Source: Cloeon dipterum
Taxonomy: Eukaryota; Arthropoda; Insecta; Ephemeroptera; Baetidae
DNA length: 64,000 nt
Assembly: GCF_949628265.1 (NCBI RefSeq)
Contig: NC_088789.1
Location: 26,715,883 to 26,779,882 of the forward strand
Direction: 5' to 3'
Below are positions 2,346-35,200 of the stretch, one piece after another (the first letter of the stretch is position 1; the number at the start of each line of letters is the position of its first letter). The notes under the pieces were generated by a model that worked only from the letters and a program-made list of their open reading frames with translations, was not told where the DNA came from and ran no database searches. The position numbers were made by a program, and so were the translations under genes.

Positions 2346-4212
2346 ATAAAAATTGTAATCAAACTGCTGCAAGTGAGCAGCGCCGCCGTTAGCGGTAATT
2401 TATCTGCTGACAGTGTCGATATTCCCCGAGTGGATATATGTATAACACATCCATACAGCTCCTCATCTTTTCACCTGTCACTCCAACACTGCACAATGCA
2501 CGACCGCGGACCTTGACCTTCTCGCTCATAATCACACAATGCGCGCCCGGAACAACGGATTAGCGATATACATACCGATTTTCGCATTCTTTTTGTTCAA
2601 TGAAAGTAAAAATGTGTTATCTTTTTATCACTGCTGCTCTAACAACCTCACAAATTTCAAAATCCTTTATGAATGGCTTGAAACGAAATTTTAATTCGTT
2701 TTTGACACAGTTAGATAAATTATTTTAAGGACTTGATAAATAAAGACACCAAATTGTAATTGATAGATCAACCTTTTCTATCCTTTCAGATAAGAAGTAC
2801 GGCATACTTTTATTTATATTTTAGAAAGCTGTAATTTGAAAAATGTGTCCCGGTAAAAATAAAATAAAATAAATTTAATATAACACGACACCTTATTCAT
2901 TTTTCAACGTTTTTAAATTTTTATCTCACTCTCTTGATCTCGTTCGCTCTATTGTCATGCGTGAGTCTTTCACACCACCGCCCATACATGCAGTGAGATT
3001 AAAAAAAAAACTCATCGCACTGTGTTGAATATTAGATCAGTTCTATACGTGCTAGCGGGTGTGTTCAGCCACCCTGGCTGACAGAAGAGTCATCGCTGTT
3101 ATATTATTGTTGTCGCAAATGGGAGCATACGCTCGCGTCATGCAAGAATGCAGCTAAATAATAAATAGCAAGCCAACATAGACCACGGAGTTTTTGTCAC
3201 AAAGATCACGCGAGACTTGCAGGTGCACTTCAATGATTAATAACTTCAGCTGCTCTAGCTGATAGATTATTTGGAGTATTTAAGATCTTCAAATGGTCAC
3301 ATCTGTGGCACACGCAGTTATAACTTTAATGTTTTAATATTTTCCTCTAATTTTAGTGATTCAGGGGACCCAGAATAAGTTGAATGAGAAATAAAATAGG
3401 CATTTTTCTTGGAATTAAAACCTAATATGTATTTTAAAGTTCAATATTTGTCAATTAGGGTAACACAATTTCATCACGACCTGAAAACCCATGCCAACAA
3501 GGGTTATCCTTTGTTTGGATCCGCCTTTAGAAAAATAAGAAATTGCATTGATTACGAAAAAAAAGAATTAAAAGTGTGTATGTATTGGCATGACTCAACA
3601 GACCCATAAAATCAAATGATAAAAATACTCGATTCCAGCAGGTCAAAATGAATTTTTCATAAATAAAATGTTTATAACTTTCAGGTATCTTTTTTATCTG
3701 TTATTCCTTTCTGAATATGATTTGCCCTTGGCACCAATCAACATTCGCATTGTCGAAAGTGCCAAGGGACGTCTCAGCAAAGTCCTTGAAATTTCCCTAA
3801 TTTGCGTACGACTTTTTTCGCTTTTAGCAGTTATATGGGCCTCACGTTCTTGGCCCTGCGGGTAGCCAATAAAGCGAGTACGCTTGCAACTCTAGAGACG
3901 CTGCTCATGAAAGCTTAATGCGTATTGATCTGAATTTGCCAGCAGGTCAGAATCAACAGGGACATAAGCAAATAGTAAATATTGGGTACCGCACAAGTCG
4001 ATAAAAACATTCGACACACTCGTGTCAAGGCGGTATGCTCATACCGCAGTCTGTTGCTTGGAAACGAATCGAGAGATTTATTACCATATTTAGGGGAAAT
4101 ATTTATTTGCGTACAGAACGCAACAGATTCTTTGTACAATAAATTGAGGTTTTTAGCGAGTCAAGAGGGGTCGAGCTAGCAATAAATTATCTGTGGATTA
4201 AAGAAGACAGGC
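2346..4212. other. Intergenic stretch, no gene seen
   Basis: About 1.9 kb of mostly AT-rich sequence. The GC-richer part up to roughly 2560 may be the anoctamin promoter. Short open frames around 3409-4180 have no recognisable motif and no splice partners. I see no RNA gene. Confidence 0.5.
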
Positions 4213-13128: not shown

Positions 13129-16068
13129 CTAGGTAGTAGCCGCAGTAATGTCAACATTTTCCATGGATTCTTCAGCTTCCATTGATTCTGCAGAGATCAG
13201 TCCTCTCGATGAAAACCTGTCTCTCACTAAAAGTATAAAATCGTTGTGCGTTAAATTAAATTAATTTAAAAAATGAAAATGAGAGTACCTTTGGGGCTGT
13301 TTTCCATTTGCCAGACGGTGAAATTATTTTCTCTGTTGTCGCCTCCAACGCAGACAACGAAAGGCGAATTTGGCGACATTTGAAGAGTCACAATTGCTCC
13401 AACTTGCGTGTCCTTTGCATCCACCTTCTGCGGCACACCCTCCAGCATGTCCCAAATGAAGAGCTCTCCGGTCATTGAGCCAGTGACCAGCAGTCCTGGA
13501 CACGAGCAGCTGAGGGAGAGGCCTGTTACTTCCTTCGTATGCGCCTGTAGGGTCCAGATCGGGTCCTTATTCCGGACGTCATAGTAGTTAACTTGGCCAT
13601 TGTCAGTGCTCGCCTGAAACGCATTAGTTGAGCAGACTTAATAATTAAGAAGTTTCTTTCAACTTACAAGGAAATTGTACTCCTCAAAGTGATTCCAAAC
13701 CACTTTTTCGACTTCCCCTGGCAGCTCCCACTCATTGAATAAACTGTCTGTCCGACAATCGAACAATCGCACGGTCCTGTAATAAAGATTTAATTTTTGA
13801 TAAATATCAGACTCTCCAGGATACACGGAAATCTGGAATTTCACTCGTGCTTTAATATGGGGACCAGTCATAGCAGGTCATTTCAATAAAATATGAAAAG
13901 ATGTGCATCAATTTTATATTAATTATGCAATAGAATATTCTATTAATTCATGACGACTGTCCGCATGATATAAACTGAAGAAGAAAACTAAAGTATAAGG
14001 TTTAAATTGGCTAATTAGCCATTATCCATGGAAGAAGCACATAAAGGTGTTATATTTTATTGAATGGATAATTAGTGAAGGTTTATCACTATTAAGTATT
14101 GATTCAGTCAGCAATTGAAGTAAATCCAGAGGTCTCAGTGGCAAATTTTAAGTCACGTAGGCAGCCGCCAGCCGCATGAATCTAGTTAAGCTGCGCCAGC
14201 CGCCAGCCATTGATGAAAAAGGATCACAAATTAAAAAAAAGCAGGAGAAAAAATTTCTTCTGGGCCTTTCTGACCATTAAATCAAATTATGTATCCGTTT
14301 AAAATATTGTCAGCTGCACCAAACGCATGAGAAAAGCAGAAAATTGCCAGCTGCCACAGACCCCTGAAATTCTCAACTATCTCCTATTGCCTTGACACTC
14401 TAAGAATGCCTTTACAGCTAAAGGACTGATCTAATTTAAAAAAATGAATTTTTTTCTAGATATATAATATCAATTAGCCGAGAGTAAACCTAACTGTTAT
14501 TGTTTACATAGAAATAATCAGAAATCAAAGCTCGATATCACACTCACTTGTCACAACTTCCTGTCAAGAGTCCGTGCGCTTGCTTGTGGTGCCACTGCAT
14601 TGTCTGCACCTCCGCATTAAAAGGGTTGTACACGGTTGACGGAGTGCCATTGTCCAAGTCCCACAAAATGACGCTCTTGTCCGCAGAGCCGCTCGCAAGA
14701 ATGTGGCTCATGTGCTTGTTCCAGGACATGCAGAGAACCGACTTCTTGTGTCCCACACTAGGTGTCTTTTTCTTTTTGCTCGCCTTCTTTCCAAGACGGA
14801 ACGACGGCTCCAGACCATCCACAATGTCCAGGTCCCAGACATCAATTACATTGGACATTGTGCCGATTGCCACAAGATTTCCAAAACCTCCAGCTGCAGA
14901 GAAAATTTATATTTTTTTGCAGTCAGAGAAAAAATTTGCTCACCTGGCTCATGATTCAGCCACTCGAAGCAAAGCGGCACTGATGGCAGGATGATGTCAT
15001 GGTGCACATACAAGTAGCCTTCATCTTCATTGTAAACTGAATGATTAAATATTTCTTTATTAACATTTGGTTTGCTTCAAAGTTGGGCTCCATTCAAAAA
15101 CATTTAGATTCAAGACTCATTAAATTTGTTTGAAAAACACAAATTTTTAACTCATTATAGTGATTTTTATTAGGAAAAGCGTAATTATATTGGTTTAAGG
15201 AAGAAAAATTAAACAGTATTAAATTAAAGTTGTATGCCGATGGTGTCCAATAAATTAATAGTAATAATTAAGGTAGAAATATACCTTGCCTTTGAAACCA
15301 ATAGTAAACAAAAAATAGAAAAGTCTCAGGACCAATTTGGGTGGAGGCAAAGGGGATGCTCACCAAACAGGAACTCAAAATTTAGGTTTAAAATTTTCTC
15401 AAGATGTATTTAAAACATTAAAAATCTCACCATATACTTCCATGGTGGCACTTTCATCTTCCACATGACCAGTAATAATCAGGTTGTCTTCAGGCTTGAT
15501 TTCAAAGTCCTCCTCCTCGCTATCAGCTTCTGACTGAACGTCGACCTCTGGTCCTCCTCGTGGTGTTTCAACAACTGCCAACCCTCCAAGAGATAAAGGA
15601 TTTGATTGCACTAGAAATAACATTCTCAGTAAGTTTTATACAATTAAATCAACCAATTAATATATTCATACGGGTTTCACCGTCGTAGTTTGCAAAGTTG
15701 AATTCATCTCCTGGGGGTGCAGTATCAATCTCCGCTGCGTTATTTTCATCACCAGACTCTTCTTCATCGCTAAAAAACATTAAAATTCCATCATGTAAAT
15801 AAATACCTGAATGAATACACGGTTTCAAATATCTTACTCTTCTAAATCTGCCGCAGTAGCTTGAACAATATTTCTTATCTCTTCATCATTCAGCTTCACC
15901 TGAAAGTTGCAATGAGCGTAATGAGATTTTATTCTTTTGAGTGTTTTAGTAAGTTTCTGATTAAGATACAGGACATAATGATGTTAATTGTATGTATGAT
16001 AATACCTTATCTGGAATTCTTTTGGCAGCTCCCTGCTTTACCCATGAAACACTGGATATGAAATTCAT
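13129..16068 (-). CDS. pwp1: PWP1 periodic tryptophan WD40 protein (complete, 457 aa)
   Basis: PWP1 is a nucleolar and chromatin WD40 protein that promotes rRNA transcription and ribosome biogenesis (nclb in Drosophila). Exons: 16006-16068, 15838-15899, 15672-15769, 15431-15610, 14944-15036, 14548-14893, 13668-13776, 13289-13613 and 13129-13226. They total 1374 nt in frame. The protein starts MNFISSVSWVKQGAAKRIP, which matches the conserved family start. Next come an acidic stretch (residues 42-50, DDEEESGDE), a second acidic block (SEADSEEEDFE), and the hallmark VIDVWDLDIVDGLEP with a lysine cluster (SKKKK). WD repeats follow: SGSADKSVILWDLD, LTGSCDKTVRLFDCR, STDNGQVNYYDVR, TGSMTGELFIWDM and NNFTVWQM. 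Slightly shorter than human PWP1 (501 aa) through a shorter N-terminus and tail. The 771-bp intron at 13777-14547 holds no recognisable feature beyond a short GCCAGCCGCCA duplication near 14160-14205. Confidence 0.93.
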
Positions 16069-16865
16069 AATACAATTTTAAAAAATTATTGGAATTATTG
16101 AGGGAAATCAGGGAAACTTAAAGATCCCGTGCACGTGTCTATGTTTTGATTATCACAACTGGCCTGGACAGGCAAATAAGTGGGAGTGAATCGATGCTCG
16201 AGTAGCGCCTCTGGCGGAGAGGTTTAGATATACATATGTATTGCTGAGCGCGCGAACATTTTTCTCCTTTATCTCGTCTCTCGTCTTGTTCAATAGAAAC
16301 TAACTAAATTGCAGTTGATGGACTCAATTATTTGCAGCGCATGCTGTGTACTTTATGTAATACCCATATTTAATTAAACGCTAGCGAAACCTTTGAGTTG
16401 TGCGCGCTGAACTTTCATGCTAAATGTGGCAAAAAACAAAAAATGTCAGACGGCGCGCTCACATTATTAAGGACGTGTGTAGCGTGTAGCATGTGTATGA
16501 TTATAATATTATTCTTGCATTTACGCAAGTACAAAATTATTATTAATTTGATGATGGGAAATTACAGAATTTGTTAGGTCTTGTGAGCAGTAAGAATATA
16601 ATTTCCTTCTTGAACGAAGAATAAATTCGCTCTCAGAGGTTTTTAAAAAGATTAGGCGTAAAACCAAAGAGACGACTTAATGATCGCTTATCTTAACTGT
16701 GCACTAAATGCTCATTATCTTGCCACGTCGTCATAGTCATATGACTTCAGCCATTTGTCTATTACATTGTCTGCATAGCTCAATAGTTTGATCGCTGCGG
16801 TAGCTACAATCCCTTATCTTTCCGGATTGTAGCAAAATTATCGTTTTGCAAAAATCGCTCAACAT
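16069..16865. promoter_or_regulatory. Divergent region between PWP1 (-) and the small membrane protein gene (+)
   Basis: About 800 bp with no gene. A stretch at 16296-16345 (words CTAACTAAATTGCAG and GATGGACT) recurs at 23262-23302. No TATA box can be assigned. Confidence 0.35.
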
Positions 16866-17120
16866 ATGGGAGAACCGGAAAGCATTCCTCTTCAGAGGGT
16901 CGATACTGTCGATAGGGAGTCGTCTGCCAGAGACAGTAGCAATAATAAGACTCCATGTCAATGTAAATGTTGGTATTGGTTTCTGGCTGGGTTCGGTGTC
17001 GCCTTGATTGTTGGCGTCATCGTAGGAGTTACCCTCTTGATAAGTACGTGCTATAAAGTCATTTTTCATTTTTTAAAACTCAAATTTCAATTAATAATTT
17101 CAGTTGCCTTCGTAACCTAG
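16866..17120 (+). CDS. Small single-pass membrane protein, two exons (64 aa), duplicated gene A
   Basis: I do not recognise the family. Exon 1 is 16866-17043 and exon 2 is 17104-17120, joined across a 60-bp GT-AG intron (donor A|GTACGT, acceptor TTTCAG). The product is a polar N-terminus with many Ser, Asp and Arg, a cysteine cluster (PCQCKCWYWF), one strong hydrophobic helix (FGVALIVGVIVGVTLLI) and a short tail ending IAFVT. This looks like a type III or tail-anchored membrane peptide. A second gene at 22356-22574 has the same two-exon plan, an intron of exactly the same length with closely similar sequence, and similar downstream flanks. The duplication supports a real transcribed unit. An alternative last exon at 17641-17675 is also possible. 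Function unknown. Confidence 0.5.
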   Translation: MGEPESIPLQRVDTVDRESSARDSSNNKTPCQCKCWYWFLAGFGVALIVGVIVGVTLLISTCYKVIFHFLKLKFQLIISVAFVT

Positions 17121-17129
17121 TGCGAGTGT

Positions 17130-17352
17130 TACCACCACATCTGTATGACTGCTGCGTACACACACATATACTTGGAAGCAAAAGCAACTGAACTAAACAG
17201 CACAACAAATGTGAGAGATTTCACCACACATCATATTTTCCAAATCTCTACGCTAATTTAGGGCACACTATATAATTTCTGAACGCAAAATCAAGCCAAT
17301 CAAAATCGAAGAGAAAACATCCTAAAACAGGCTTTCTTAAATTTTAAAAGAT
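17130..17352 (+). repeat. Downstream part of a segmental duplication shared with 22575-22750
   Basis: Words such as GGAAGCAAAAGC, GAACTAAA.AGCACAA, TTTTCCAAATCT and GAACGCAAAATCAA occur in the same order after both small membrane protein genes. The last about 55 bases (17298-17352) also recur almost unchanged at 30213-30268. Confidence 0.6.
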
Positions 17353-17640
17353 ATTGTGAGAGAGCCGGAGCTTCAGTTTCCCTCTTCCAACATTTATAAA
17401 TTCCAAAATTGTTCAAATTTTTAATTTTTCACAATTTCAAAAAGAGGGAAGACATTTTGTTATATTCAAAGTATTGACTCAAGTGTTTTCATGTATATAT
17501 GTGTGCACGCAAAGAGTGCAGAGTATGAAATAAATTATTCGTTCTCTAGCAGTCTATAGCAGTCTTTTCCTACCCGTGCGGCAACCCCGAAACAGCTACA
17601 TTTCAAGTATTAATAGTTAAATTTTGATTTTTTTTTACAG

Positions 17641-17675
17641 ATGAAACTTGTCGCTGTTGCATAAATTGTTATTGA
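17641..17675 (+). CDS. Possible alternative last exon of small membrane protein gene A (cysteine-rich tail)
   Basis: A very strong acceptor (a run of T then ACAG) ends at 17640. Spliced in phase to the donor at 17043, the exon would replace the IAFVT tail with NETCRCCINCY and a stop, giving 70 aa with cysteine clusters on both sides of the membrane helix. It depends entirely on splice signals and phase. Confidence 0.3.
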
Positions 17676-18862
17676 ATTCAAAGATTATATTTGTATACAT
17701 ATTTACGGTTTGGTTAGTGGTTACAATAAGGCAGAATAGCAATTTTTGGCAATAATATTTTATACAGTATAATTTGTGGCCAAAATAATTAATCAGACCG
17801 GTTGAAAGAAAAGCTTATTGAAAAAAGCCTATTTTTTTCTATGAGTTGCTTCCTTGTTGTTTTAGCTTGAAGATATTTTTTGCACGACAGAAAAAGATGT
17901 AATCGTCAAATTTCTGCAAAACTCCTTGAGTTATTGGGCTTAGAAGGGTGAAGTGTTTGTGCTATATATTATTCTGAGGATATTCTCTTAAAACAATCTA
18001 CAGATTAATCCAGGATTAAAAGAACACGCGTAGCAAAAATTCACATTATATTTTAATTTTTTAGATTAATATCCTGGGCGAAGTTGATATAATACTAAAT
18101 AATCCTCGGACTACAATTTTTTGTGCGGGATTGTTTTGGCGCTATAAAAAAGTTCTACTTGTATGTGCTACACGCACGTCGCGGTGGACTTTTTGGTCGG
18201 AAAAATATCCACTGTACCACTGTAATTCGACCCTCAAGAATCGATTGGTGTGCTCAGACACTTCGTCAAAGACGGTTTTCGACAAAATAATAAAAAAATA
18301 CCTCCAATTTTTGTAAATAAATCAGACAATAATCGCTTTTTGTATGGAAGATAATCAAAAACTAGTCGTGTTGGATAAAAAATTAAAATATGTGAAAATA
18401 TAATGCTTCAAAATTGATGATTCGCACCCATTTGATAGATTCCGATAATCACAGGGGCACAAGAAAATTAATAATCTATATTTGGTTTTGCACAACCCCC
18501 ATAATTATCCAATTATCGAAACTTTGGTGCTCGATGGATGTATATATGGATAAAAAGTATTCATTACAGAGGTCTCAAATAGCCACAAGTCAGCCGCCGG
18601 TCAAATATATCAGAGTTAAAATAAATCAAAGAGGAGCTGCAGGAAAAAATCGGCCTCCTATGCCCATCGCACTATCAAATAGAGGCCATTGCGATTGCAA
18701 TTTTTCGTAACTGCGACGTCACCTCTCTTTACTTATCTGAGCTAATTCGTTAATCCCTATTTATTGCAATTATGACTAAGAGAATGAGTTAAGAAATAAA
18801 CTCGTAAAAGGCGAGTCGATGCAGATAAAAGGCGAGTCGATGCAGATAAAAGGCGTACTATA
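17676..18862. other. Intergenic stretch with short tandem and inverted repeats
   Basis: No gene seen; the open frames at 18131 and 18414 look random. At 18020-18132 a short segment has ends resembling the CCCGC termini of the large element to the right. At 18804-18855 the 21-base unit beginning AAAAGGCGAGTCG occurs about two and a half times, directly before that element. Confidence 0.4.
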
Positions 18863-21800
18863 CCCGCGTAGAAAAATTTAGTCCAGGATTGTTCTAGGAA
18901 TATACCTCTTTGGTCGAGGATCAATCCTCAGGAACAATTATGGGCTGATATTGGTGACGCTTTTTCGTGTTTTTAGATTAATCCGAGGATTATCCCAAAA
19001 AGATAATCCTAGAATGTCCCAGGGATGTTCTTAGGGAGATGTCAGAAAACTCTTGCGTTCCTCCTAAGAATATTCCTGGAACATTCTTCGGTCTTTCTTA
19101 GGAACTTCCTCAAATTAATCCAGGATCAATTTCAAACGTGAAAAAAATTAGTCCTTGGCTCTTTATTTTAATAAAATTTAATTCATTATTGTCTTAAATT
19201 TTAATTGGGATTTACACAATAATTAAACATATATATTTATTCCAAGAATAATTATTTTATTTTTAATTTCACATACAGGCAGTAGAGCATAACAATTATT
19301 ATGGTTTCACAATGACAGAGTGCATATACATCCAAACATTTTGGGCACTACACAAATATCAGTATTTAAGATTAAACACAAATCAAAATACTGCTTTTGA
19401 CAAATTAATCATACAGTTCATGTCAATAAGAACAAGAATGAAGGAGAGGCTATGCAACAAAATGATTTGGTTCAGGCAAAGGAAGCATGACAAGAACAGA
19501 TCCAGAAATGCCACCGCGATTTACATAGAAAAATTACACATTTTTCATCACCGACTTACAGTTTCCGCCACCCAAACTTATTTATGGGGTTCTAATTAAT
19601 AACTTAAGGACTTGCGAGAATCCCATATCAAAATGTTGGTGGCGAAAACTGCGTAAGTAGCAGCAAAAAGTTAAATTTTACCATAAAACCGTTGGATTTG
19701 AAAGTTGCGCGATCTTTCCTAATTTCTTTGGACGCTAATCTATAAAATGAGACTTACCCTGTTAACCGCAAGATCCAGGCCATCCGTCCGAGTCCGCGGG
19801 ACGTCCGTGATGTCCCATACTGGCGGCGTCCGGCGTCCTGCGTCCGTTAATAACTTTAACTTTGAACATCGGTTGACCGTTGACGCGTTAGACAAAGAGC
19901 GAAGCAGGATTTTGTAAGTCTCTTGTCTCTTGTTGCTGCTGCTCGCTAGTCCTGCTTAGGGTTGGCAATATCAATATCGATATATCAAAAAAATTTGATA
20001 TATCAAATATCATATCAGTTATCATGGCTGATATTTGATATATCATATCAGGCTGATATTGATATCTAAGTCGGATATCAAGGTTGATATTAGTTGACAT
20101 TTTTGACCGACAGATGGCATTTTTCATGCCGGTTTTCGCATAAAAGTTTAGGATCAAACTGTACTTTCCATCCCCAAACATGGGCGTAACCGATATTGAA
20201 GTTTTCGCAATGCACAAAGGCGCGAAAAATGTCTCAGCTGATCGATCACAGATGATCTCTCAGCTGTGGTCAACTTATAGTAGCTTTTGTGTTGAATGAA
20301 AATTAAATTAAATTGTTTGTAAACAATGGTCAGCAACGTCAGGTAGGTCAGGTTAAACCCTGACAACAATAAAGGCCACCCACGCCAGCTGATCGGTCAC
20401 AGATGACCTCTGTCAGCTGGCAGTACCACATTTACTTGTTGAATTAAAATGATATGTAACAAATTGTTTGTAAACAATGATTTTTGATTTGAATGGTGAA
20501 TAATTAAGAACTTATTGTAACTAATCCAATCAAAATGTGTACAAATAACGCAAATAATATTGCGAAAATTGCTCTGATGATGGCATAGCCCCAAATTAAA
20601 AATTGAAATACTTAATACAAAACAGCTGCTACGGTTTAAAGTAATTTCATTCTGATTTCTCTTATGTGTATCTATTAAACTCAATTATTTATTACCAGAT
20701 GAAGGTTGAAAAGCACATATGATGTGGAGAAAAACACCCCAATATTTTAATTTGAAGATAAATTGACGCTCTCACATTATCAGCTGATATTGTAAACATC
20801 AAACTTAAAAATTAATTTTAAAATGGCACAATTAAATTATAATATTTTATTTATTACCTAATAATAGCTATTAATTAATTAATTAGACACCCATGTGGCG
20901 GGTAGGGGGGAAGGGAAAGCAGCCAGATGCAAATTTTGGCGCCATATGGTGGGATCCGACACACCCCCTTCTCAAACATCTGTTTTAAAGGCGCGCAACA
21001 TTTAAATTATTTGAATACTCATCCCATATGCCTGCGGAAAACCGCCATTTTTCAAATGTTTTCTTATTTAACCGATATTTATGAAAAAACCGGTGAAAAA
21101 TGCTTAAAAAATCGGTTTTTAAGCCTTAAAAATAGCCATAACCGGTTTTGGTTCATCCGGCAGCCATTTTTTGATCATCTGGAAATATCATCGTTGATAT
21201 ATCAAATTCTGATATTTTTTCGCTGATATATCAGTGATATTGATATTTCAAATATCATATCAAATATTGATAATCGATATTGTTTTTTTCACAAAGTCAC
21301 AACCCTAGTCCTGCTGCCACCGCCCGTCGCCCCTCCCCCGCTCCACAACAGAGGCAGGCAGCAGCAGCAGGCATTCCATGCAAGTGCGTGCATGCATGTG
21401 CAGCCGCCGCTACCACGCGCACACTAAAATCGCCCTTTTAACCCTTTTTGTCCTTCTGACCTTTATTTTCAAATTTGCCCGTTTGTCGGTAGCATTAATT
21501 TAAGACTCTTTGTGTTAAGAAATTAATTTATTTAATCGAATTTATGATTTTTACCCTTTTTAATCTGGGCAGATTCTTTGAAAAATAAAGGCATCATAAT
21601 TTTTTGTTAAGATAATGAAAAATTTGGTTTTAATATAAAAATTTAATCCATCGCATTAATTAAAAAAATATTTGCGAGAAAAATTTTTTGTGATAACGAT
21701 TTCAAAATATTTAACAGTATGGCAGTTAATTTTCTTGATTAAATTATGTTTCATATTTAATTTTGTGTTTTTAATTGTAAGAAAAATATCTAAGTTCTTC

Positions 21801-22230
21801 TCTTTTAGGGTTTTTTAAAGAATATTCTAGGAACATTAAAAAAATATTTTGAATTAATCTCAGAATGATCCATGGAATAATCTGGGGATATTCTATTTAA
21901 CTTTATTCAAATTTCCCCTTTGGGATTATTCTAGGGATATTCTTGTAGATTAATCTCTAGATTGACTTTAGAACATTTTAAGGTTAATCAGGATTCATTC
22001 CAGAAACATTCCAGAAATTAATTTTTTGGATTAATCTTAGATAGATCCAAAGAATAATCAGAGGATATTTCCTGTAGATTGATCTCTAGATTGATCTTAA
22101 ACTATCTTAGGTTAATCTTGATTAATCCAGGATTAATCCTGGAACATTTTTTTGGATTAATTTTTTCAGATAAATTTAGATTAATCTAGGATTAATCAGG
22201 ATATTCCTGGGTTATATTTTTTTATGCGGG
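18863..22230. mobile_element. TA-flanked terminal-inverted-repeat element, nonautonomous, with a nested hAT element
   Basis: The left end reads TA-CCCGCGTAGAAAAAT and the right end, as its complement, CCCGCATAAAAAAAT followed by TA. This gives inverted ends and a TA target duplication, as in Tc1/mariner-type insertions. Both subterminal regions (about 18890-19140 and 21800-22215) are packed with degenerate copies of words like GGATTAATCC, CCAGGATTAATCCTGG and AGGAATATTCCT. No transposase frame is present. Without the inserted hAT element and one target-site copy it would be about 2.0 kb. Superfamily assignment from the TA duplication alone is tentative. Confidence 0.6.
19957..21307. mobile_element. 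hAT-like nonautonomous element (1351 bp) with 8-bp target duplication
   Basis: Starts TAGGGTTGGCAATATC and ends ACAACCCTA, short inverted ends typical of hAT elements. It is flanked on both sides by the same 8 bases, GTCCTGCT (19949-19956 and 21308-21315), the standard hAT target duplication. The ends are followed by dense GATATATCA/TGATATATC palindromic words. No open frame encodes a transposase, so it would have to be mobilised in trans. A 94-bp internal segment is duplicated (20235-20328 and 20386-20479). Confidence 0.85.
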
Positions 22231-22355
22231 TATGACAACCATAGAGAGAACTCATATTAATTGCTTTCATTTTACTTTTGCCTCAGTATTTGAACTGTCC
22301 ACCTTATTGTCACGTCTTGTCGTCTTTGTGACTTGGTGTGCATTGGCTGAATAGT

Positions 22356-22574
22356 ATGGGCATGATAAAAAAGTTATTTGTCGAAGAATTCAGTAAGACG
22401 CCAACGCGATACAAAGTTTTACGGTTATTTCTTGGTGCGGTTGCTGCCGTCTTTGTTGCCTGGGGTATCTATGCAATCGTCAGAAACAGGCTCGCTGCGT
22501 CAAGTACGTTCTATAGTCATTTTCCATTTTGTAAAACTCAAATTTCAATAATTTAATCTGCAGATCTCACCTAG
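22356..22574 (+). CDS. Small single-pass membrane protein, two exons (52 aa), duplicated gene B
   Basis: Not a family I recognise. Exon 1 is 22356-22503 and exon 2 is 22564-22574, with a 60-bp intron. The donor (A|GTACGT), phase and most of the intron sequence match gene A at 16866. The product has a basic amphipathic N-terminus (MGMIKKLFVEEFSK), one hydrophobic segment (LFLGAVAAVFVAWGIYAIV), then RNRLAASNLT. Unlike the intron and 3' flank, the coding exon shows no clear similarity to gene A apart from the first two residues and the general plan of one membrane helix. Both genes lie on the same strand either side of the transposon nest. The start chosen is the first ATG. Confidence 0.45.
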
Positions 22575-22750
22575 AGACGAGTTCGTGTTTCGTGTTTGTT
22601 CCTATATCAACCCTATCAACACACCTGTGCCTGTGGCTGCTGCATGTGTACATATGGAAGCAAAAGCGATTGAACTAAATAGCACAAGTGAGTGATTCCA
22701 CAAAATCATGTTTTCCAAATCTGAACGCAAAATCAAAGCCAGTAAAAACC
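22575..22750 (+). repeat. Segmental duplication partner of 17130-17352
   Basis: Carries the same ordered words as the region downstream of gene A (GGAAGCAAAAGC, GAACTAAATAGCACAA, TTTTCCAAATCTGAACGC), with small deletions. It ends just before a MITE-like element at 22776. Confidence 0.6.
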
Positions 22751-22775
22751 GATTAATGTGTCAGTCTACCGAAAG

Positions 22776-23102
22776 CAATTGACCAGTTACATAAACCCTT
22801 AGTGTTCGAAGCCGCCAACAGATTTCTTAAAAATTCAGTTTTAAGGCACTTCCGCAGCGATTTCAGACTCAATCTAGCTCTGTGCATTCCTATTCCTCAC
22901 TTAATTTTCTTCCTTTTGACGTGCCGAAAACAAAAATCGGTTCAGCCAATCGCCGTAGAAACATCAGAAAAGATTTTTTTATTCAAAAAATAGTTTTTCA
23001 GGTTTTTTCACAACTCTACGGCAATTGGCTAGACCGATTTTGGTTTTCAGCACGTCACAAGAAAGCATTAAGTAGTGAAGAATGCACAGTATAGATAGAT
23101 TG
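22776..23102. mobile_element. MITE-like inverted-repeat element, family A, copy 2 (right arm shortened)
   Basis: Begins ACCAGTTACATAAACCC and TTAGTGTTCGAAGCCGCC, then TAAGGCACTTCCGC, GCGATTTCAGACTCAATC and GGTTCAGCCAATCGCCGTAG. The second half carries the reverse complement of the inner part (CTACGGCAATTGGCTAGACCGATTTTGG, split here as CTACGGCAATTGGC and ACCGATTTTGG). The same order is found at 27185-27580. The outermost part of the right arm is missing. No coding capacity. Confidence 0.7.
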
Positions 23103-23279
23103 TAAACATCAGTAAACATTTTTTTTAATTGTTTTGTTAAGTGTCTTCTGCGTTTCAATATTTATTCACGTACAATTAAAAATTTTGGTCAATTTCGCGA
23201 TTTGAAAGCCTTTTTTGATAATTGTTAGAGTCACCTACATTTCAATACATATTAATATAAACGAACTAAATTGCAGTCG

Positions 23280-23603
23280 ATGGACTTATCTGATTGCAGT
23301 GCCGCAAGAGACGAACATCATGGCCATCAATATGCATTTCTTCAAAAGGTGCGAGGGAAGGTCGGTGCCATCGACTTCAAAAACCGTGCGCGCATCACCC
23401 TAAGGAGGCAGCTGCGAGGCGACGCGAGCCACCGGCACCAGCGTCTACAGCCGCCGCAAAAGCGCGCTGTGTTTTCGACCGGCGTGCATTTTCCTATAGA
23501 GTGGAACGACCTACCACCTGAGCTTAAGGACTGCACCGTTGCTGAATTTCCCTCCCTCTATAAGAAGCACCTCTGGCAAGTATGCAGTGAACGTGATCAG
23601 TGA
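23280..23603 (+). pseudogene. Possible 3' fragment of a non-LTR retrotransposon reverse transcriptase
   Basis: A 107-codon frame from the ATG, GC-richer than its surroundings. Its last part reads FPIEWNDLPPELKDCTVAEF followed by LYKKHLW. This resembles the C-terminal end seen in many LINE polymerases (W-N-x-L-P, a few residues, then a conserved F and a basic stretch). No reverse transcriptase core motif is present upstream. An AT-rich tail with AATAAA (23777-23782) follows. Similarity is by eye only; it could also be an unrelated chance frame. Confidence 0.35.
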
Positions 23604-24685: not shown

Positions 24686-27600
24686 TCATTCCCTGATAGA
24701 TTCAATTCTGTCCAGACGTCCTTCAATAAAGTTGATTGTCTCACACAGGTTCTTGGAAGAGTACTTCTTACGCAGGTACTGAAATAAAAGATTTTAAATA
24801 AGAGATGACAAAATAATTTCTAAGACTCTTTTGGTCTCGGCCACTGACTTGCCCTCGGTCGCTGGACAAAGAGAGCGGCAATTTTGCGACCGAAAGAAAT
24901 CAAGACGAACCTGCAAATTGGACGAGTGTCCCTTGAGGACGACGCGCGCGAGTTGCTTGACGGCCTCCTCAACCACGGCAAAGGAATAAGCTGAGAAGTA
25001 GTGCAGCGTGGGGCTCCAGAGGCGCTTGAGGATGTCGCTGGAGCTTTGGTCAGCCTGCTTGTGCTCGTCGTACACATCTTGGTCCAAGTTGACGAACAAC
25101 GATAGGCACATGGCAGCGGCGGCCTGCAGCGAGGGTCGCACGTGGCACATCTCATGGCGCACCAGCTGCAGTTCCATGAAGTAATTGGCCGTGCAGTGGG
25201 TCTCGAACGTGGCGTCGGCCACCGTGCTGAAGCACCGAAGGAACTGCAGCGGCAGCGGGCGCCCGATGTTAAAAGATAAGCGGGCCAAAATTTTGGCCTC
25301 CATCTCCACGACCTGCTCCGTAGTGTAAGTGTAGTCGGTGATGTAGATGCAGTCGCCAACAGTGGTCGGACACATGATCTCCTTGAATTTGGACGCGATC
25401 AGCAGGCTCGTTACACCAACCAGTTGCAGATGCGCCTTGGGAGTTGCCAGGGCGGTCTGCAAATTTATTGAACGGTTTAAAAAATAAATTTCTTCCGAAG
25501 CACTAAATAATTTATTTAAGGTTTTTTTTAAAATAAAAAATGATCTGAATCATTTTTTAGAATTTTGCCAGAGTATTTTCTATAATCCTTTACAAAAATT
25601 TTTAAAATTAATGCATAACTTTTTTAAAATCATTCTGAAAGAGCCATTATATAGGAATTATCTATCAATTATTAAAACCAATATTAAATAAAAATCACTT
25701 GGTGCATGACATCATCAACCAAATGACTCATTTTACACAAAAAAGTAAATAAGTAGCTCCTCACCGCCATGTATTTGTCAAAGATGTAAACTGCAAGGTA
25801 CAAGGTCTCGGACAGCAGCATGAACTCGCGGTGGACACCGACAAGCCAGTCAACAACGGTCGAACGCATTTCATTCGTCATGATTTTGCATCGCTTGACG
25901 TATGCTTCTGGGATGCCGTATACAACTTGGAAACAAGATAAGTTCTGAAAAAAAAAACAATCGTCAATATTAATGGCCTGGCACTAACAACAGTTTTTTG
26001 ACCTTGTTGACGTAAAGGACAAAATTGTCAAAAATAATTTTGTGCAGATTTTCTACAATCAGTAACAATTTCCCTCATGACGTTAGGAGATTTTGCACTG
26101 TTGCTTATATCCAATCACGATAAACTTTATTATGCAGACACTCTCCTTGACGAAACTATTTTTAATTTGTGACAAAATCCGGAATTTTTACAAATTTTTC
26201 TACTTGAGATCCATTCTAGATTCCCTCCTATGTCCTCAAAAACTTACAATACAAAATTGGCGCCTAAAGTAGTGAAGTGACCCCCAAGGTGATAATATCT
26301 CCAAGTATATTACACGTAAAATCGGCCAACCATTATTATTTGTCTTGTCAATGAAAGCCGACTGAGCAAAATTGATTTCAAAAATTTTCCTTAAAAAAAT
26401 TGGTCCAGCCCCCAACTTAAAATCTGCTTGATTGACAATTTTGACCTTGATAAGCACCCAAAATTAACAAACCTCAATTTGACTCATGTACGAGTATATG
26501 GCCTTCATATAGCGGACCACATTTTTGGCGTCTTTGAGGTTAGTCTTGTCCGAAATCTCGAGATTGGCTATCCCCTCCTGCGAGAAGTTGGACAGGTCCG
26601 GCTTACTGGCCTGTGCCTCAACCTTGTCCAATTGCTCTTTGGGTTTGGCAGCAACGGGTGCAGGTGGTTTGGGTCTAACTACCCGTTTCACTGATACCTT
26701 GGGCTTTCCATGCTGAGCATTCGGGGCTGATACGATGTTGGCGATACGGCGAACAACACCGGGCTTTGTCATGCTGGCGATCGGCGAAACTTGCTTGTTC
26801 CGCACATTGGTCTTCTGCCTCGCTGGCTTGCCGGTCAGTCTGGTAGTTGGCACATTCAGCCTGTGCGAAATTTCAAATTACAAAAAATAAAAAGTGGTTA
26901 GTGAATTTCATACTTAGGCTTGGTCAAAACGTGCTTTTCTTTCCTGGCATTGTCCTGTTTGCCAACGGTGACCAATTGAGCGGTCTGTCTGTTGCCGATT
27001 ACGCCAAGGGTGCTTCTCACGCGACGAACTGGCGCCGCTTTTCGCTCCAACACATCCAGCACATTCTTGGGAAAAGCATTTTCTGCATTCTTCCTATTGA
27101 TGGCCTGAAATTGTAGATCCTTAATATATTTACAAGGGAACCCTGGATATGTTCCACCCAGCAAATCGGAATATTCGCCGCCAACCCTAAGTGCTCGATG
27201 CCGCCAACAGATGGCGCCACAGTAGACTTTCGATTTTAAGGCACTTCCGCTGCGATTTCAGACTCAATCCAGCTACTGTGCATTCTTCAATTAATTTGCT
27301 TTTTTTGACGTTCTGAAAACCACAATCGGTTCAGCCAATCGCCGTAGAATCATGAAAAGCTATTTTTTGAAATAAAAAAATATTTTCCAACGTTTCTACG
27401 GCGAATGGCTGAACCGATTTTGGTTTTCAGCACGTCAAAAAAAAAGCAAATTAATTGAAGAATGCAATATAGCTAGATTGATTCTGAAATCGCAGCGGAA
27501 GTGCCTTAACATCGAAAGTCTACGGTGGCGCCATCTGTTGGCGGCTTCAAGCACTTAGGGTTTATGCAACTGGTAAATTGTTAGTATTATAAGTTCAGTA

Positions 27601-28365
27601 AGAAACGAGCACCAATTAAAATTCTGCTATCTAGCATAGTTTACGAATAACAGAGCTGCAAAGATTTTCCAATTGTCCACGTGGAAAAACAAAATATTAG
27701 TAAAAGTGCCCGAAATTGGCAAAATGCACATTTTTGAAATCGGCATGAAGTGCAGATTCAAAAAATGTTTGGTTTTATAAAATCCGAGCATTTTTCTAAA
27801 AGTAACACCATTTTTAAATAGTATGTTTTTTTTTAAATTTTCAAACTACCATAACTTTTTGAAAAATGCTCGGATTTAAAAAAAAAATCAAACATTTTTG
27901 GAATCTGCACTTCATGCCGATTTCAAAAATGTGCATTTTGCCAATTTCGGGCACTTTTACTAATATTTTGTTTTTCCACGTGGACAATTGGAAAATCTTT
28001 GCAGCTCTGTTATTCGTAAACTATGCTAGATAGAAGAATTTTAATTGGTGCTCGTTTCTTACTGAACTTTATACTAAAATTTGGCGGCGAGTATTCCGAT
28101 TCATATCTAGGGTTCCCTTTTGTTAATTCCATCAGTAAACCGTGGAATTTTTAGAAGACATTCCTCCACCATTCGGGGGACGCGACCGTTAAAACCCTAA
28201 AACCTCGAGAATTTCGGGGATTGCGAGCCGTCTTATTTGAATTTTAATTTCAACTACGACAGCTCTTAAGATGTAACTTTTAATCATGATTTGTGAATTT
28301 TATGTTATACAGTACATTGACAGACATACCTGAGCAGTGCAACGAGTCGTTCGAACGCCTGCCAT
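24686..28365 (-). CDS. CycB: G2/mitotic-specific cyclin B (complete, 477 aa)
   Basis: B-type cyclins activate Cdk1 for mitotic entry and are destroyed by the APC/C. Exons: 28330-28365 (12 codons), 26914-27104, 26473-26860, 25765-25944, 24911-25456 and 24686-24778. They total 1434 nt in frame. The N-terminus has a canonical destruction box, RSTLGVIGN (residues 42-50), in a basic disordered region rich in K, R and P. The first cyclin fold has EMRSTVVDWLVGVHREF (230-246), SETLYLAVYIFDKYM, KAHLQLVGVTSLLIASKFKE and YITDYTYTTEQVVEMEAKIL, then FNIGRPLPLQFLRCFS, a B1/B2-type feature rather than B3. The second fold runs from YFMELQLVRHEM to KKYSSKNLCETINF. The MRAIL motif is changed to MRSTV. Intron 1 (27105-28329) is largely filled by foldback elements. 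Confidence 0.9.
27134..28122. mobile_element. Long foldback element in cyclin B intron 1, interrupted by a family A MITE
   Basis: The outer left segment (27134-27184, AAGGGAACCCTGGATATG then ATCGGAATATTCGCCGCC) is the reverse complement of 28081-28122. Inside, 27581-27800 is the near-perfect reverse complement of about 27865-28077 (TTCAGTAAGAAACGAGCACC against its complement, and so on). If the MITE at 27185-27580 is removed, the outer and inner arms join into one continuous arm of about 270 bases around a short AT-rich centre. I therefore read this as one foldback element with a later insertion in its left arm. Confidence 0.75.
27185..27580. mobile_element. MITE-like inverted-repeat element, family A, copy 1
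   Basis: Left arm CCCTAAGTGCTCGATGCCGC, CAACAGATGGCGCCAC, TAAGGCACTTCCGCTGCG; right arm its complement, GTGGCGCCATCTGTTGGCGG then AAGCACTTAGGG. The two arms of about 170 bases meet near 27365. The inner part includes GGTTCAGCCAATCGCCGTAG and its complement. A second copy lies at 22776-23102. No coding capacity. Confidence 0.75.
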
Positions 28366-28927: not shown

Positions 28928-31900
28928 CGTTCGTGCCGCGGAAAAAAAGTCCGATCTCCAACTTGCCACTTTGTAGCAAAAGTCCGACGGACTTTTTCGC
29001 CAACGGTAAAATTGTCCGATCAAAGGTATTCCAAATTTTACAAGAGGTAATAAAAACTTAATAGCCAAGTTACATTATGTTTATCCATGGTATTCCTTCA
29101 AGATTTTGTTATTTTAAACCTTCATTTTCATAATGTGACTGTCATTTATTACTAGAAAATCTTCCATTTACTAATAAATTAGAGGTTTTTGGGTCAAGTG
29201 TATACGCTATTACATTTAAATCACTTATTATGTTGGATTTTTCAGAGAAAATATGCTCCTCGTGCATTTTTATATTGATAATATCACTTATTGTTTATAG
29301 TTTAATGGAAAAAATATTACTGCGAAGGATTTTGATATATTCTATTTGAGCAAAAATCTCTGAAAGCAACACATTGTTGTCCAAGTCGATGGATTATGAC
29401 GAAAGTTTTTTGCCAAAACTTTGCCCTAATTGACCGACAAAACAGTAGAGAAAACTCCGACTTTCCAATTTTTGCGGGTTTTACGGGCGTTCAAAGGTCA
29501 AAATCTGGGAATTTTGAGTACTTCGTAACTTTGCTCAGGGTGGTACTAGAATAAAAATTTGAAAACTGGTTTACTCGTCTCAACAAGGCAAACAACTTTT
29601 ATGTTGACCTCAAAGTTGTAGGTCAAAGGTCAAGGTCATAAAAATTGATTTTTTTATTTTAAACTCAAATTAGAAAATGAAGATATTGAATTTTTTTTTA
29701 TTTTTTCATAGCCAAATTGTAGAGCATAAAAAATTAAGTTTAAAGCGTTAGAATTAGGAACGGTGTTATCAAAAATGTTTTAATAAAAAAATGAAAATTT
29801 CGAAAACACTAGTTTTTCGAGGTTGGTAAATAACGATGATCGACTAAATCTCGACTTCTAATCATCCGATTTTAAAAAAACCGCATAGCGTTAGACTCGT
29901 CTCGACGTCCCCAAGTGCACTAAATTGGTACAAAACCCACCAACCCCCAACCCCCTTTTAACCCCCTCAATAACGGTAAATTAAGCATTTTTTCGTCCGT
30001 TTGAACACCTTAGCACGACGTTGACGAGAAATTGTCTTCTTCAAACCAATTCATTTACTTAGTTCACTCAAAGACGAGTAAAACGGTGCTTATTTTTTGT
30101 AAGTGGGACCACTACAATCCGAGATTTGGGTGCACAAAGTTTTTTATCGAGACGCGATGCAATAAAAAACTTTGTGCACCTAAATCTCAGGGTAATTTAA
30201 TTAATAACAAGGAAATCAAAACCGAAGAGAAAACATCCTAAAACAGGCTTTCTTAAATTTTAAAAGATGGTCGATAATTTTCAGAATATGTGCTATTTGA
30301 CCCATAAGACGCTTTCAGGGTGCCCATAATCTCGTTCCTGATCTTGAACACTTGAAAGAATCTCGGGGGATGAATAAATTAAACATTTTTTTTAAAGCTC
30401 TTAACTTGACCGTACCAACAGTAGCAGTGTGCAGACCTTTTGCAGATTAAACCAATACAGAGCCCATGTCAGGCGTTTTTAAAGTGGCTATACAAATAGT
30501 AAATTTTATAATAGTGATCGCTTGAGGGCTTTGCCCTACGCCAGGGTATGATTTCTCACCTATTCTGATGGTCTTGTTTGTTCCCAATCAAATTGTTTTC
30601 TTGATCTAAAAAACACCCTTTCTCAACATTTGACGCTTTGTTTCTCGCAAACTATACAAGTTTCACCATTCTGAAAATTTTTTGACTATAGTCTGAAAAT
30701 AGTTTACACACACTTACAATTAGGCCAACATTTTTTAATCTAAAATATACTTAAGAAATGAAAAATACTTTTTTGGAGATGTCTTCAACTGAAATGTTGC
30801 AATTTAGTCAGCCGCGCATGCCGCCGCAGGCAAAATGTTCTCAATCAGCCGTCGCCTTAAATTACGCGGCGGAGATTTCTATAACTCGCCGTTATGTTCA
30901 TTTGATTTAAAGCTAAAATATGCAAATTGTTTCTTTCCATTTTTTATAGGTTATAATAAAAAACTTTCCTGCTTATTCTTTTGATTGGTTTTATTAGGGT
31001 ACTTTATTCGTTACAGGGTATTTTCAGTTATTTTCCATAGTATGTATTATCGTCACATGAATCGTTTAAATCTACAGTTAACTTCTTCAGCATAAATGAT
31101 ATTATCCTAATGCAATTTTGAGGACTTAAAATTAAACAAGATCCTGAATAACTCATCAAGAAAAATGTTAATGGACTTTGCTTCAAAAATTGTGACTGAT
31201 CGCGCACAATGTAAACCTTTGAAACACATTGATGTGCACACGACTTCATATTACGTTATGCTAAAGCAGTACAAAACTATTCAACTTACTATTACACCGG
31301 CTTAAAATATAATAACTACTATTCAAGCTTGCAATATACATCATCGTTATTTAATACAGGTTCAAATGTGTTGGAAATTCTGACTAGATAAAATCAACTT
31401 TTTATGCTTGGGCAGTTCAATGTGTATAAAAATATAAAAGGATTCAATGGATTCACTACGCATGATTTAATTTCACTCACATAGTTCATTTGAATACTGA
31501 AGTATCGGCTGCGGTTATCAAGAAATACTGCCACAAAAAAGTGATTCAAATTCGTTACAAAGAAACTGCGTGTCTGCATAAATGCAGATTTAAGATAATC
31601 AATCGATATTTACAGGGACAATGTTATCACAAACATTAAAACTGTTTTCAGCGCACATTTTTAACTAGAAAACTAATTCGGCATTCGTTCCAAAAATAAT
31701 AGTAGCACACAATTCAGTCATTTTTCGATAATTTTATAGAAAATGTAAATGCATGGTCCCAAGAAAACGAAAATCAAGATTGATGCAGTATGATGAAGTG
31801 AAATGCAAAGATAATTGACAATTTAAGTCATTGATCAAGGCGGGAATAAACTTTCCAAATGTTAATTTTTATATAACAGTTAAGTGCCTCAATTTGTAAG

Positions 31901-32282: not shown

Positions 32283-35200
32283 CTAGATCTGACTGTCAAC
32301 ACAAACAGCCTCAAAGGCGTGTACGAGTTCTGCAAACGAGGGACGGTCTCTGGGGCTGTCTGACCAGCACGCCCTGAGGATTACTTGGAGGGGTTCGGGG
32401 GCCGCCTTCGGGGGTCGCCACTGCAGCTCCCGTTTGTTCAGCAGACTGACCACGGCCTCGTCAGGGTGTTTTGCCTGAGGCGTCTCGCCGGCGTGCACCA
32501 TCTCCCAGAAGAGGACTGCGAACGACCACACGTCGCTTTTGGTGGAGAAGTCGTCTTCGAAGACTGCCTCGTAGGGCATCCACCGCACAGGTTTCAACTG
32601 AGGAATTATTTAAAGTTAGTTTCAAATGGCTAGTCTCACCCAGTCAAAATTCTACTCTCTATTTTTTCCACATCTAATTTCCCCTAAATGTAAATTTGCT
32701 GTATTTTAATATTAATTTTTTTTTTGAGGAAATAAACCAACTTGTGTCTTACGTCCAGGGTTTGCCAAAACCTGCATTTTTCCGGATAAACCCACTGAAT
32801 TTTAGCGCATTGCAAAATTGGCACACCCAAAAAATCAAGCCAAGGTTTTGTAATGAGGAAAACTCTTTTCTGAAACATGTTACTTACAATATCGTGATGT
32901 TTGATGTACTCATGGCTGTAAGTGTCCTTGCACAGGCCGATGGAAGCGATTTTCACCGTGTGAGTGGAGGTGATGAGAATGTTCCTGGCTGCCAGGTCCT
33001 TGTGTGTCAGCCGCTGGCTGGCCAAGTGGTCCATTCCCCGCAAAATCTGTAATGCCAACTGCACCAGCTGGGCCATGGTCAGCGGCGGAGGCAGGCCTTT
33101 CACGTCCCGTTTGCTTCCAGAGGTGGCCGCAGTCGTCGCCAGAAGAAGCTGTTTCAGATCACCCTGGAAGAAATTAAAACAATAAATTCAATGTTTCGAA
33201 ATTGACCCAAGCACCTACCCAATCAGTGTATTCTGAGATGACATAGTGTGGATCCGTGTCACGGCACAGACCAAGTAGCCTCGCAATGTGCTCGTGTCTC
33301 AGCTTGTGGTACATGTCCATCTCTCTTTTGAACTCCTGCAGGGCGTGCTCGTCCCGGGTCTGCAGAGCCTTGACCATCACAACCACCCCTTCATCATCTG
33401 CGCCGCCACTGCCCTTCATTCCTTTTGCTTTGGCGACAAACACCTCGCCAAACTGTCCGTGACCTGGTGAAAAATGATTTTGAGTAAAATGCTTTGCGAA
33501 TTAATGAATTAGCAAGATACCTAAGGTTAGGATCTTGTTCAGGTCTTGTCTTGGAAAGCTGAGTTTGTCGTAACTGGATCGTGATTTCTTGTGACCACCG
33601 CTGCTGTTGGAACTGTGAGACTGGGAACCTCCTTCAGCACACTCCGCAAGGCGCGGCTCCCTGAAAGGCTTGGACAGGTTGCTTTGTAGCTCAGTCTTCT
33701 CCCCATTTGGCTCTCCATTTTCCGCTTTGGTCACTACACAGAATATTGATGAGTGTCAGATTATTTCCTTAAATATTTCCACTGGCCATAAAAGCCTTGA
33801 AATATCTCTTTTTTAGGATTAAATTGATTTTGGAGCAAAAGATTTGCCTCTGAAAAAAGTTCGTCTTTGCGTAATTCTTAATAAAAATTTGAAAAAAATT
33901 TGTTTTACTCAAAATTTATGGCAAAAAATATCTGAAAAGAATTTTAATAAATAGCTGTACGAAAATATGTTATTTGAATATAGCTGTACAAACTTTCTGC
34001 ATTTATGGAAAAATACCTTGCCGACTGAGACAGTTTATTCACTATACCTTAATCAATTCTATAAACTAAATTGTAAAATCTATTATATTACAGTTAAAAA
34101 TATTTTAAATTCCAAATTTCATTGATTAACCAACACAATTGGTGCAGAAATACCACAGTTGCAAGGAAAGAAGAAAACAATTGGCAATGTTTTTCTTTCC
34201 AGATAGGAAAAGCCAGAAAAAAATACTTGAGTTCTTTTTTAACAAACTTTCAATCTTTAAAAAAGTTTAACTTACACAATGTGCCTTCAGGTGTAGCCCC
34301 GGTTTGCAGGTAGGACTGTTTGCGTTTTAGCCTTCGGTACCTGCACCAGACCATCAAGCCGACAACAAGCAGCATGTATGCAGTGGCTGCACTGAGAGTT
34401 ATTGTCACCGTGCGAGTCATCAGGGCTCCTTCCTCAGCTTCTCCCATATTCAGGAAATAGTCACGGCCTGGATTAAGTTTCCATATGAATAAATTACATG
34501 TTAAAACTGGCTGAATTTCATTTACTTCTGACAATCAGCTGCACTTCTTCCCTTTTGAATCCGCCAGTGTTTCCAGCTATGCAGGCGTACCGAGCCTCGT
34601 CAATTTGCAGCACTTCTTTTATGAAGAGAGTATTATTTTTCAAGACAGTTATCCTGAAAAGAGCACGCATTATTTGTTTGACCTGTCTAAAAATATAGGA
34701 ATTTCAAATATATGTACCTCTCTGTATCAAAATTGTTGAGTTTATTGTCCTTGTCCCACTGGATATTTGGCATAGGGTCTCCTTCCACAACACAGTGCAA
34801 CATTACAGAGCTGCCTTCGACTGCTTCGGTCGGATTGCTAGGGATGTCAATGAATTTGGGAGAAACTGCAACATTTCAGTTATAAAAATAAGAAAAGAAA
34901 ATACCAATTTGTTGCTTTTACCATATACGTCGACTTCAATGGTGGCGTTGATTAGCCCTTGAGTGTTGGTGGCAACGCAGGTGTAGTTTCCTCTATCAGT
35001 GCGCATAATTTGGTTGAAGTGAAGGGTGCCGTTGATATCTTGGATGTGTTCTGGGAGGTCAAATGTGCGTTGGTTGTTCTGTGACAGGCGTCGTTAGAGA
35101 GAGGTAGAGGCGATTAAAGTGTTAAATTCACCTTTATCCATTTGATCACTGGTTTGTCCGCTCCCTGCGCCTTGCAGTGCAACTTCGCCATTGATCCAAG

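Follow-up and report, generated by a model that had tools for sequence, protein, structure and literature searches.

A family of short genes in Cloeon dipterum with a rapidly changing first exon, encoding predicted single-helix membrane proteins

The window analysed here is a stretch of 64,000 nucleotides of the genome of Cloeon dipterum (contig NC_088789.1 of assembly GCF_949628265.1; C4:26715883-26779882). It contains two short genes, A and B, which are predicted to encode membrane proteins with a single helix and which belong to a small set of related genes whose first exon diverges rapidly. The coordinates given for both genes in a preliminary description of this DNA were confirmed, as were the equal length, splice sites and phase of their introns (Table 1). 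After splicing, the predicted products comprise 64 amino acids for A and 52 for B, and the most hydrophobic segment extends over residues 45-63 and 24-42, respectively.

Searches of the whole genome (190,111,064 bases in 10 contigs) with DNA stretches of A, B, C and D, of the kind proposed in the preliminary description, revealed two further loci, C on contig C3 and D on contig C2. What had been regarded as a duplicated pair belongs to a group of four or more genes; the searches score the best candidates only, so that four members are a lower bound. A 25-base core of the intron, with up to 3 mismatches allowed, was found at 5 places in 190 Mb, while the reversed control gave none. A to D match this core with 0-1 mismatch. 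The fifth place (C5:28976070) is weak with 3 mismatches and was set aside, as it reaches 17.6 bits compared to 61.5-81.2 bits for the four members. About 280 bp upstream of it, an open frame rich in Cys that runs up to a GTAAGT donor was seen by eye (L078:1103-1217). It had been considered that the shared block might prove to be a fragment of a high-copy transposon; this was rejected for the intron block, for which four clear loci and the weak one were found. A degenerate pattern search returned noise only (105 matches vs 229 in the control). When A, C and part of D were used as protein queries, each retrieved nothing but itself among the best candidates scored (B was not queried as protein).

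All four members have a phase-1 GT-AG intron of 55-60 bp in common. A, B and C also share a 3' flank, and B and C additionally a stretch of upstream sequence. The intron of A contains no in-frame stop, so that an intron-retained form would also be open and end at the same stop codon. A coding function of the intron was rejected for the set as a whole, as the frame continues through it in A only; in B and C the frame ends within the intron, and in D it ends before reaching it.

Table 1. Coordinates of the four genes and of associated features. Positions refer to the window unless a locus sequence (L011, L012) is given.
Feature	Position	Strand	Remarks
Gene A exon 1	16866..17043	+	59 complete codons + 1 nt
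Gene A intron	17044..17103	+	60 bp, GT-AG, phase 1
Gene A exon 2, coding end and stop codon	17104..17120	+	
Gene A 3' flank	17121..17370	+	homologous to C, in part to B; 43 mismatches/342 columns in a gapped alignment also spanning the intron
3' end of a long terminal repeat (LTR) retroelement	17377..17606	+	purine-rich stretch, then LTR of ~148 bp (~17458-17605, by eye); homologous to the 3' end of elements E-H
Gene B exon 1	22356..22503	+	49 complete codons + 1 nt
Gene B intron	22504..22563	+	60 bp, GT-AG, phase 1
Gene B exon 2, coding end and stop codon	22564..22574	+	
Gene B 3' flank aligned to C	22630..22752	+	14 mismatches/123 columns; local neutral yardstick
PWP1-like WD40 gene, exon and intron edge	14571..14904	-	broken copy beside C on C3, 20 mismatches/322 columns
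Kinase-domain/Ig gene, exon	33205..33356	-	copy broken into two pieces that flank C, 17 mismatches/146 columns
Gene C	L011, contig C3: start 2579, intron 2730-2789 (60 bp)		59 amino acids
Gene D	L012, contig C2: start 2293, intron 2423-2477 (55 bp)		39 amino acids

Each member possesses one strong hydrophobic segment, with best 19-residue hydropathy values of 3.13 (A), 2.37 (B), 2.33 (C) and 3.14 (D). By hydropathy the segment reaches membrane-spanning length in all four members, and insertion into the membrane is predicted. Just before the helix, a Cys/Trp-rich stretch is visible by eye in A (CKCWYWFLA), C (CCWIWYWVI) and D (CKAWWWLWLA). None of the four proteins matched a Pfam family above the cut-off (best 15.9 bits, cut-off 27), a profile search of the PDB gave no match at E values up to 1, and a literature search for the family of A to D returned neither a paper on it nor a precedent. 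As far as these literature, Pfam and PDB searches reach, the family is undescribed.

The first exons had been described as unrelated-looking. Codon-level alignment indicates that they are related for most pairs: compared to 100 codon shuffles, z values of 9.0 (B-C), 4.1 (A-B), 3.4 (B-D), 3.3 (A-C), 1.6 (A-D) and 0.8 (C-D) were obtained. The lower of these values could in part be explained by a common order of polar and hydrophobic codons. For the 150 bp upstream, compared to letter shuffles, the z values are 4.1 (B-D), 3.2 (B-C) and 2.7 (C-D), and for the pairs with A they are 0.8 (A-B), -0.8 (A-C) and 0.9 (A-D).

The surroundings of C provide a measure of neutral change. In the locus sequence L011 on C3, positions 3594-3920 match window positions 14904-14571, an exon of a PWP1-like gene together with its intron edge, and the window and the DNA beside C are the only places in which this exon was found. 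The gene encodes WD40 domains on neighbouring exons, and periodic tryptophan protein 1 is among its matches. Two further pieces of L011 (3917-3963 and 2185-2283) match window positions 33356-33310 and 33305-33205, respectively, both within one exon of a gene with kinase and Ig domains, in our reading PTK7-like (PTK below; the Pfam search covered the adjoining exon instead of 33205..33356). C is bracketed by these two pieces, whose order is reversed. C thus arose by DNA-level copying out of the window, beside scraps of two neighbouring genes; the movement took place at the DNA level, as the intron sequence is included. The reversed order of the PTK pieces resembles that expected after the opening of a circle or the trimming of a tandem copy. 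The scraps of the two host genes can therefore serve as an internal neutral clock. For B and C, the 3' flank (14/123), the third codon positions of the PWP1 scrap (12/108) and the PTK scrap (17/146) all differ by 11-12%, while the first and second codon positions of the PWP1 scrap differ at 8 of 214 sites.

Most of the intron sequence is common to A and B, as had been noted before (6 of 58 aligned bases differ; alignment z of 13.1 over letter shuffles). The start of exon 2, which was also said to be shared, is poorly matched (TTGCCTTCGTAACCTAG vs ATCTCACCTAG). The claimed similarity of the 3' flanks of A and B holds for a local piece of 77 columns with 11 differences, but a good match starts only 70-90 bp past the intron. 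In the other pairs, the introns differ at 4/54 (A-C), 2/58 (B-C), 5/53 (A-D), 1/55 (B-D) and 3/53 (C-D) positions. A strongly constrained intron is not supported by comparison with the flank: the intron is not significantly slower for B-C (2/58 vs 14/123, p = 0.096), A-C (p = 0.43) or A-B (p = 0.60), and the B-C intron compared to the flank plus PWP1 third positions gives p = 0.084. Taken alone, the B-C intron yields P = 0.032 against an assumed divergence of 11.4% and P = 0.005 against 15%, and some mild constraint is possible. The B-D intron looks slow, but its value (p = 0.019) refers to a spurious "flank" of 21 columns without real homology. A downstream segment common to B and D (window 23132-23247) was dropped as a yardstick, as it is a repeat found at 39 places of the genome, 38 of which are 72-79% identical to the window copy. 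D therefore has no valid clock.

Exon 1 of B and C differs far more than this clock. In the better-aligned part of the codon alignment, 48 of 111 positions differ (Fisher test vs flank, p = 4.5e-8), and a plain nucleotide alignment shows 45 differences in 136 positions with 10 gaps (p = 2.9e-5). Descendants of B exon 1 were simulated under neutrality and aligned with the settings used for the real pair. At d = 0.12, 0.18 and 0.25, none of 1000 scored as low as the real pair with either of two aligners, and at d = 0.35 this was the case for 0/1000 with the strict and 4/1000 with the lenient aligner. Exon 1 is therefore fast and not merely unconstrained. If gaps are cheap, B and C are identical at 101/130 positions in the exon and 147/173 in the flank, and percent identity does not separate the two; as it is uninformative, scores, codon alignment and simulation were used instead. 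The frames of B and C stay open despite indels between their upstream, intron and flank pieces. The preliminary description had emphasised that coding sequence changes more than the intron. This is correct with regard to the fast exon 1, but to speak of a conserved intron is misleading, since both intron and flank change at close to the neutral rate.

Estimates of the ratio of nonsynonymous to synonymous rates (omega, dN/dS), which had been suggested earlier as a check, exceed 1 for B and C. Pairwise maximum likelihood codon models gave omega values of 3.63, 3.42 and 3.83 for alignments of 47, 48 and 37 codons (p = 0.009, 0.022 and 0.014), and a count-based estimate gave dN of 0.75 and dS of 0.33 (Fisher p = 0.047). 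The synonymous rate is consistent with that of the flank: when the flank rate was imposed as the neutral rate, the fit did not deteriorate (p = 0.24) and omega was 8.2.

With slightly better than even confidence, we regard A to D as an undescribed family of predicted single-helix membrane proteins of 39-64 amino acids whose exon 1 is under diversifying selection. Exon 1 would be translated and under such positive selection, having accumulated 3-4 times the change of the neutral DNA copied with it since the formation of C, with the open frame and the hydrophobic segment kept in B and C. The predicted protein may act in a molecular conflict, i.e., reproductive, immune or selfish-element antagonism, among which reproductive expression is our first guess, by analogy. 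The short helix near the C-terminus would insert into the membrane, and the membrane-proximal Cys/Trp segment with its flanking residues might set partner specificity. The intron and the untranslated regions (UTRs) would drift at about the neutral rate and thus only appear conserved next to the exon. The very fast evolution of short membrane proteins suggested in the preliminary description is supported by the rate of exon 1 and by the B-C omega; taken together, its observation was confirmed in part and its interpretation gained partial support.

Several points speak against diversifying selection on a family of this kind. Expression and products of A to D are predicted from the DNA, and splicing is assumed throughout. 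The alignments are short, gapped and of low identity, and the B-C p-values are modest and uncorrected for the number of pairs tried. An omega above 1 was not obtained for the pairs with A. For A-B, in which exon 1 shows 28/66 differences over 22 codons and the flank 11/77, omega is 0.93 and the synonymous rate lies above that of the flank (p = 0.007); omega is 0.96 for A-C (10 hand-placed codons) and 0.26 for A-D (22 hand-placed codons, p = 0.023). In these pairs the exon is fast but omega does not exceed 1, either via saturation and misalignment or via exon exchange. Furthermore, B and C differ more in the initial ~65 bp of the flank than in the piece used as yardstick (whole-flank score of 118 vs 157 simulated at d = 0.18). 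In D, a stop codon terminates the frame 13 nt upstream of the intron. The start codon of C (L011:2579) aligns by eye with the leader sequence of B, where GTG is found, and its position has apparently shifted between these copies.

An LTR-retroelement remnant lies in the distal flank of A and is distinct from the shared intron block. The distal flank of C (L011:3009-3106 and 3118-3275) is the 3' end of the same LTR family. Four copies of this family, E-H, are located on contigs C1, C2, C2 and C4, with a length of ~1.0-1.3 kb and LTRs of ~150 bp. They (L062:1610-2871, L063, L064 and L065) are internally deleted and carry a purine tract before the 3' LTR. No match to the exon, intron or proximal flank was detected in the four copies examined (BLAST E up to 1e-4; intron model), and the LTR element is thus a neighbour of the genes. 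By eye, a second intron also appears possible, with a GTGAG donor common to A, B and C (window 17211, window 22688 and L011:2893) and a (T)n-ACAG acceptor common to A and C (window 17640 and L011:3395); if present, it would enclose the LTR remnant. Several other repeats were identified in the window. A 66-bp copy (92%) of the A 3' flank lies 13 kb downstream at 30203-30268, beside an inverted repeat. A 49-bp repeat (82%) occurs upstream of A (16292-16340) and downstream of B (23254-23302) and is perhaps a duplication boundary. Foldback inverted repeats resembling miniature inverted-repeat transposable elements are located at 22776-23065 and 27183-27580, one of them where the B 3' flank ceases to match C, and a large inverted repeat at 27591-28069 has arms of 186 nt which are 98% complementary and 107 nt apart.

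Other explanations for the contrast between exon and intron have to be considered. The lineages of exon 1 could be older than the intron and flank, either by an exon swap between diverged copies or by ectopic gene conversion homogenising intron and flank. We consider this unlikely, although it would fit the high synonymous divergence of A-B as well as the finding that D has little beyond the intron (1/55) in common with B, with no flank homology and a weak upstream similarity (z 4.1). The flank of B and C has diverged to the same extent as the scraps of host genes next to C, which gives no indication of flank homogenisation after C was formed, and the B-C synonymous rate fits the flank. A donor exon was not found in searches with the proteins A, C and D and the DNA of A, B and D (best candidates scored; C exon 1 DNA and B protein were not queried), which returned only family loci and, with A as query, a 61-bp piece of the A 3' flank. 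It is highly improbable that exon 1 is a diversification cassette, in which a dedicated process rewrites the membrane peptide, by exon exchange or by targeted hypermutation with turnover of start and stop codons, while promoter, intron and 3' flank are inherited little altered. Decidedly unlikely, too, is that the segments are non-genic relics, formerly or never genic, with accidental frames. Here the reading of the genes from the nucleotide sequence, the early stop of D, the displaced start of C, the short frames and the lack of a family match above the cut-off would be expected; however, a neutral exon 1 would differ by ~11% and not by 33-43%, and the GT-AG phase-1 intron and the one hydrophobic segment are kept in all four members.

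Two further explanations invoke mobile DNA. That the genes are passengers or accessory genes of an LTR retroelement, spread with the element, is suggested by the same-strand 3' end of the LTR family (purine tract and LTR) ~250-350 bp downstream of exon 2 in A and C. Nevertheless, we judge it very unlikely, as no match to the gene was detected in E-H, no LTR match was found in the compared upstream DNA (1.4 kb for A and 2.6 kb for C), and C is located among permuted host-gene scraps and is not a retroelement copy. The intron itself might be mobile (an introner), its own ends bounding the shared block: the match of B and D consists of the intron plus one base, and that of C and D ends at the 3' end of the intron. 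This seems extremely improbable, since only four clear copies were found, all in apparent members of one family, in the same phase and near the same frame end, and since A, B and C have the flank and B and C also upstream sequence in common.

The internal clock from the scraps of two conserved genes makes it possible to separate a fast exon from a conserved intron, a distinction that is seldom easy to draw for orphan micro-genes. If expressed, the family would offer a convenient example of very short membrane proteins engaged in molecular conflict, found without homology. A fast exon between slower noncoding blocks is a signature that could be used for scanning genomes for other such genes.

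Fast-evolving reproductive and immune membrane proteins of insects are short, lineage-specific and duplicated, with omega above 1. A to D are similar to them in shortness, lineage specificity and duplication, and the pair B-C also in its estimated omega. No sequence relative was found. Accelerated evolution of the coding regions was reportedly described by Nakashima and co-workers in 1995 for the snake-venom phospholipase A2 isozyme genes. Like A to D, these are recent duplicates whose coding exons outpace introns and UTRs. In contrast, they encode secreted enzymes of known function, while A to D are predicted membrane proteins of 39-64 amino acids, in four copies and without homology. For other venom genes, low intron identity is reported, which offers no precedent for A to D (PMC3745941). 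With regard to the origin of C, a report on the cattle KIT duplication describes a gene which was moved through circular intermediates with its neighbours to another chromosome, the order being reshuffled (PMC3927395). C is alike in its reshuffled order, but the stretch measures ~1.8 kb and draws on three places close together; the order of its pieces would be equally expected from a tandem duplication. Introners are near-identical introns at several loci (PMC9860276). By comparison, A to D are four copies in one apparent family, for which inheritance by gene duplication is sufficient.

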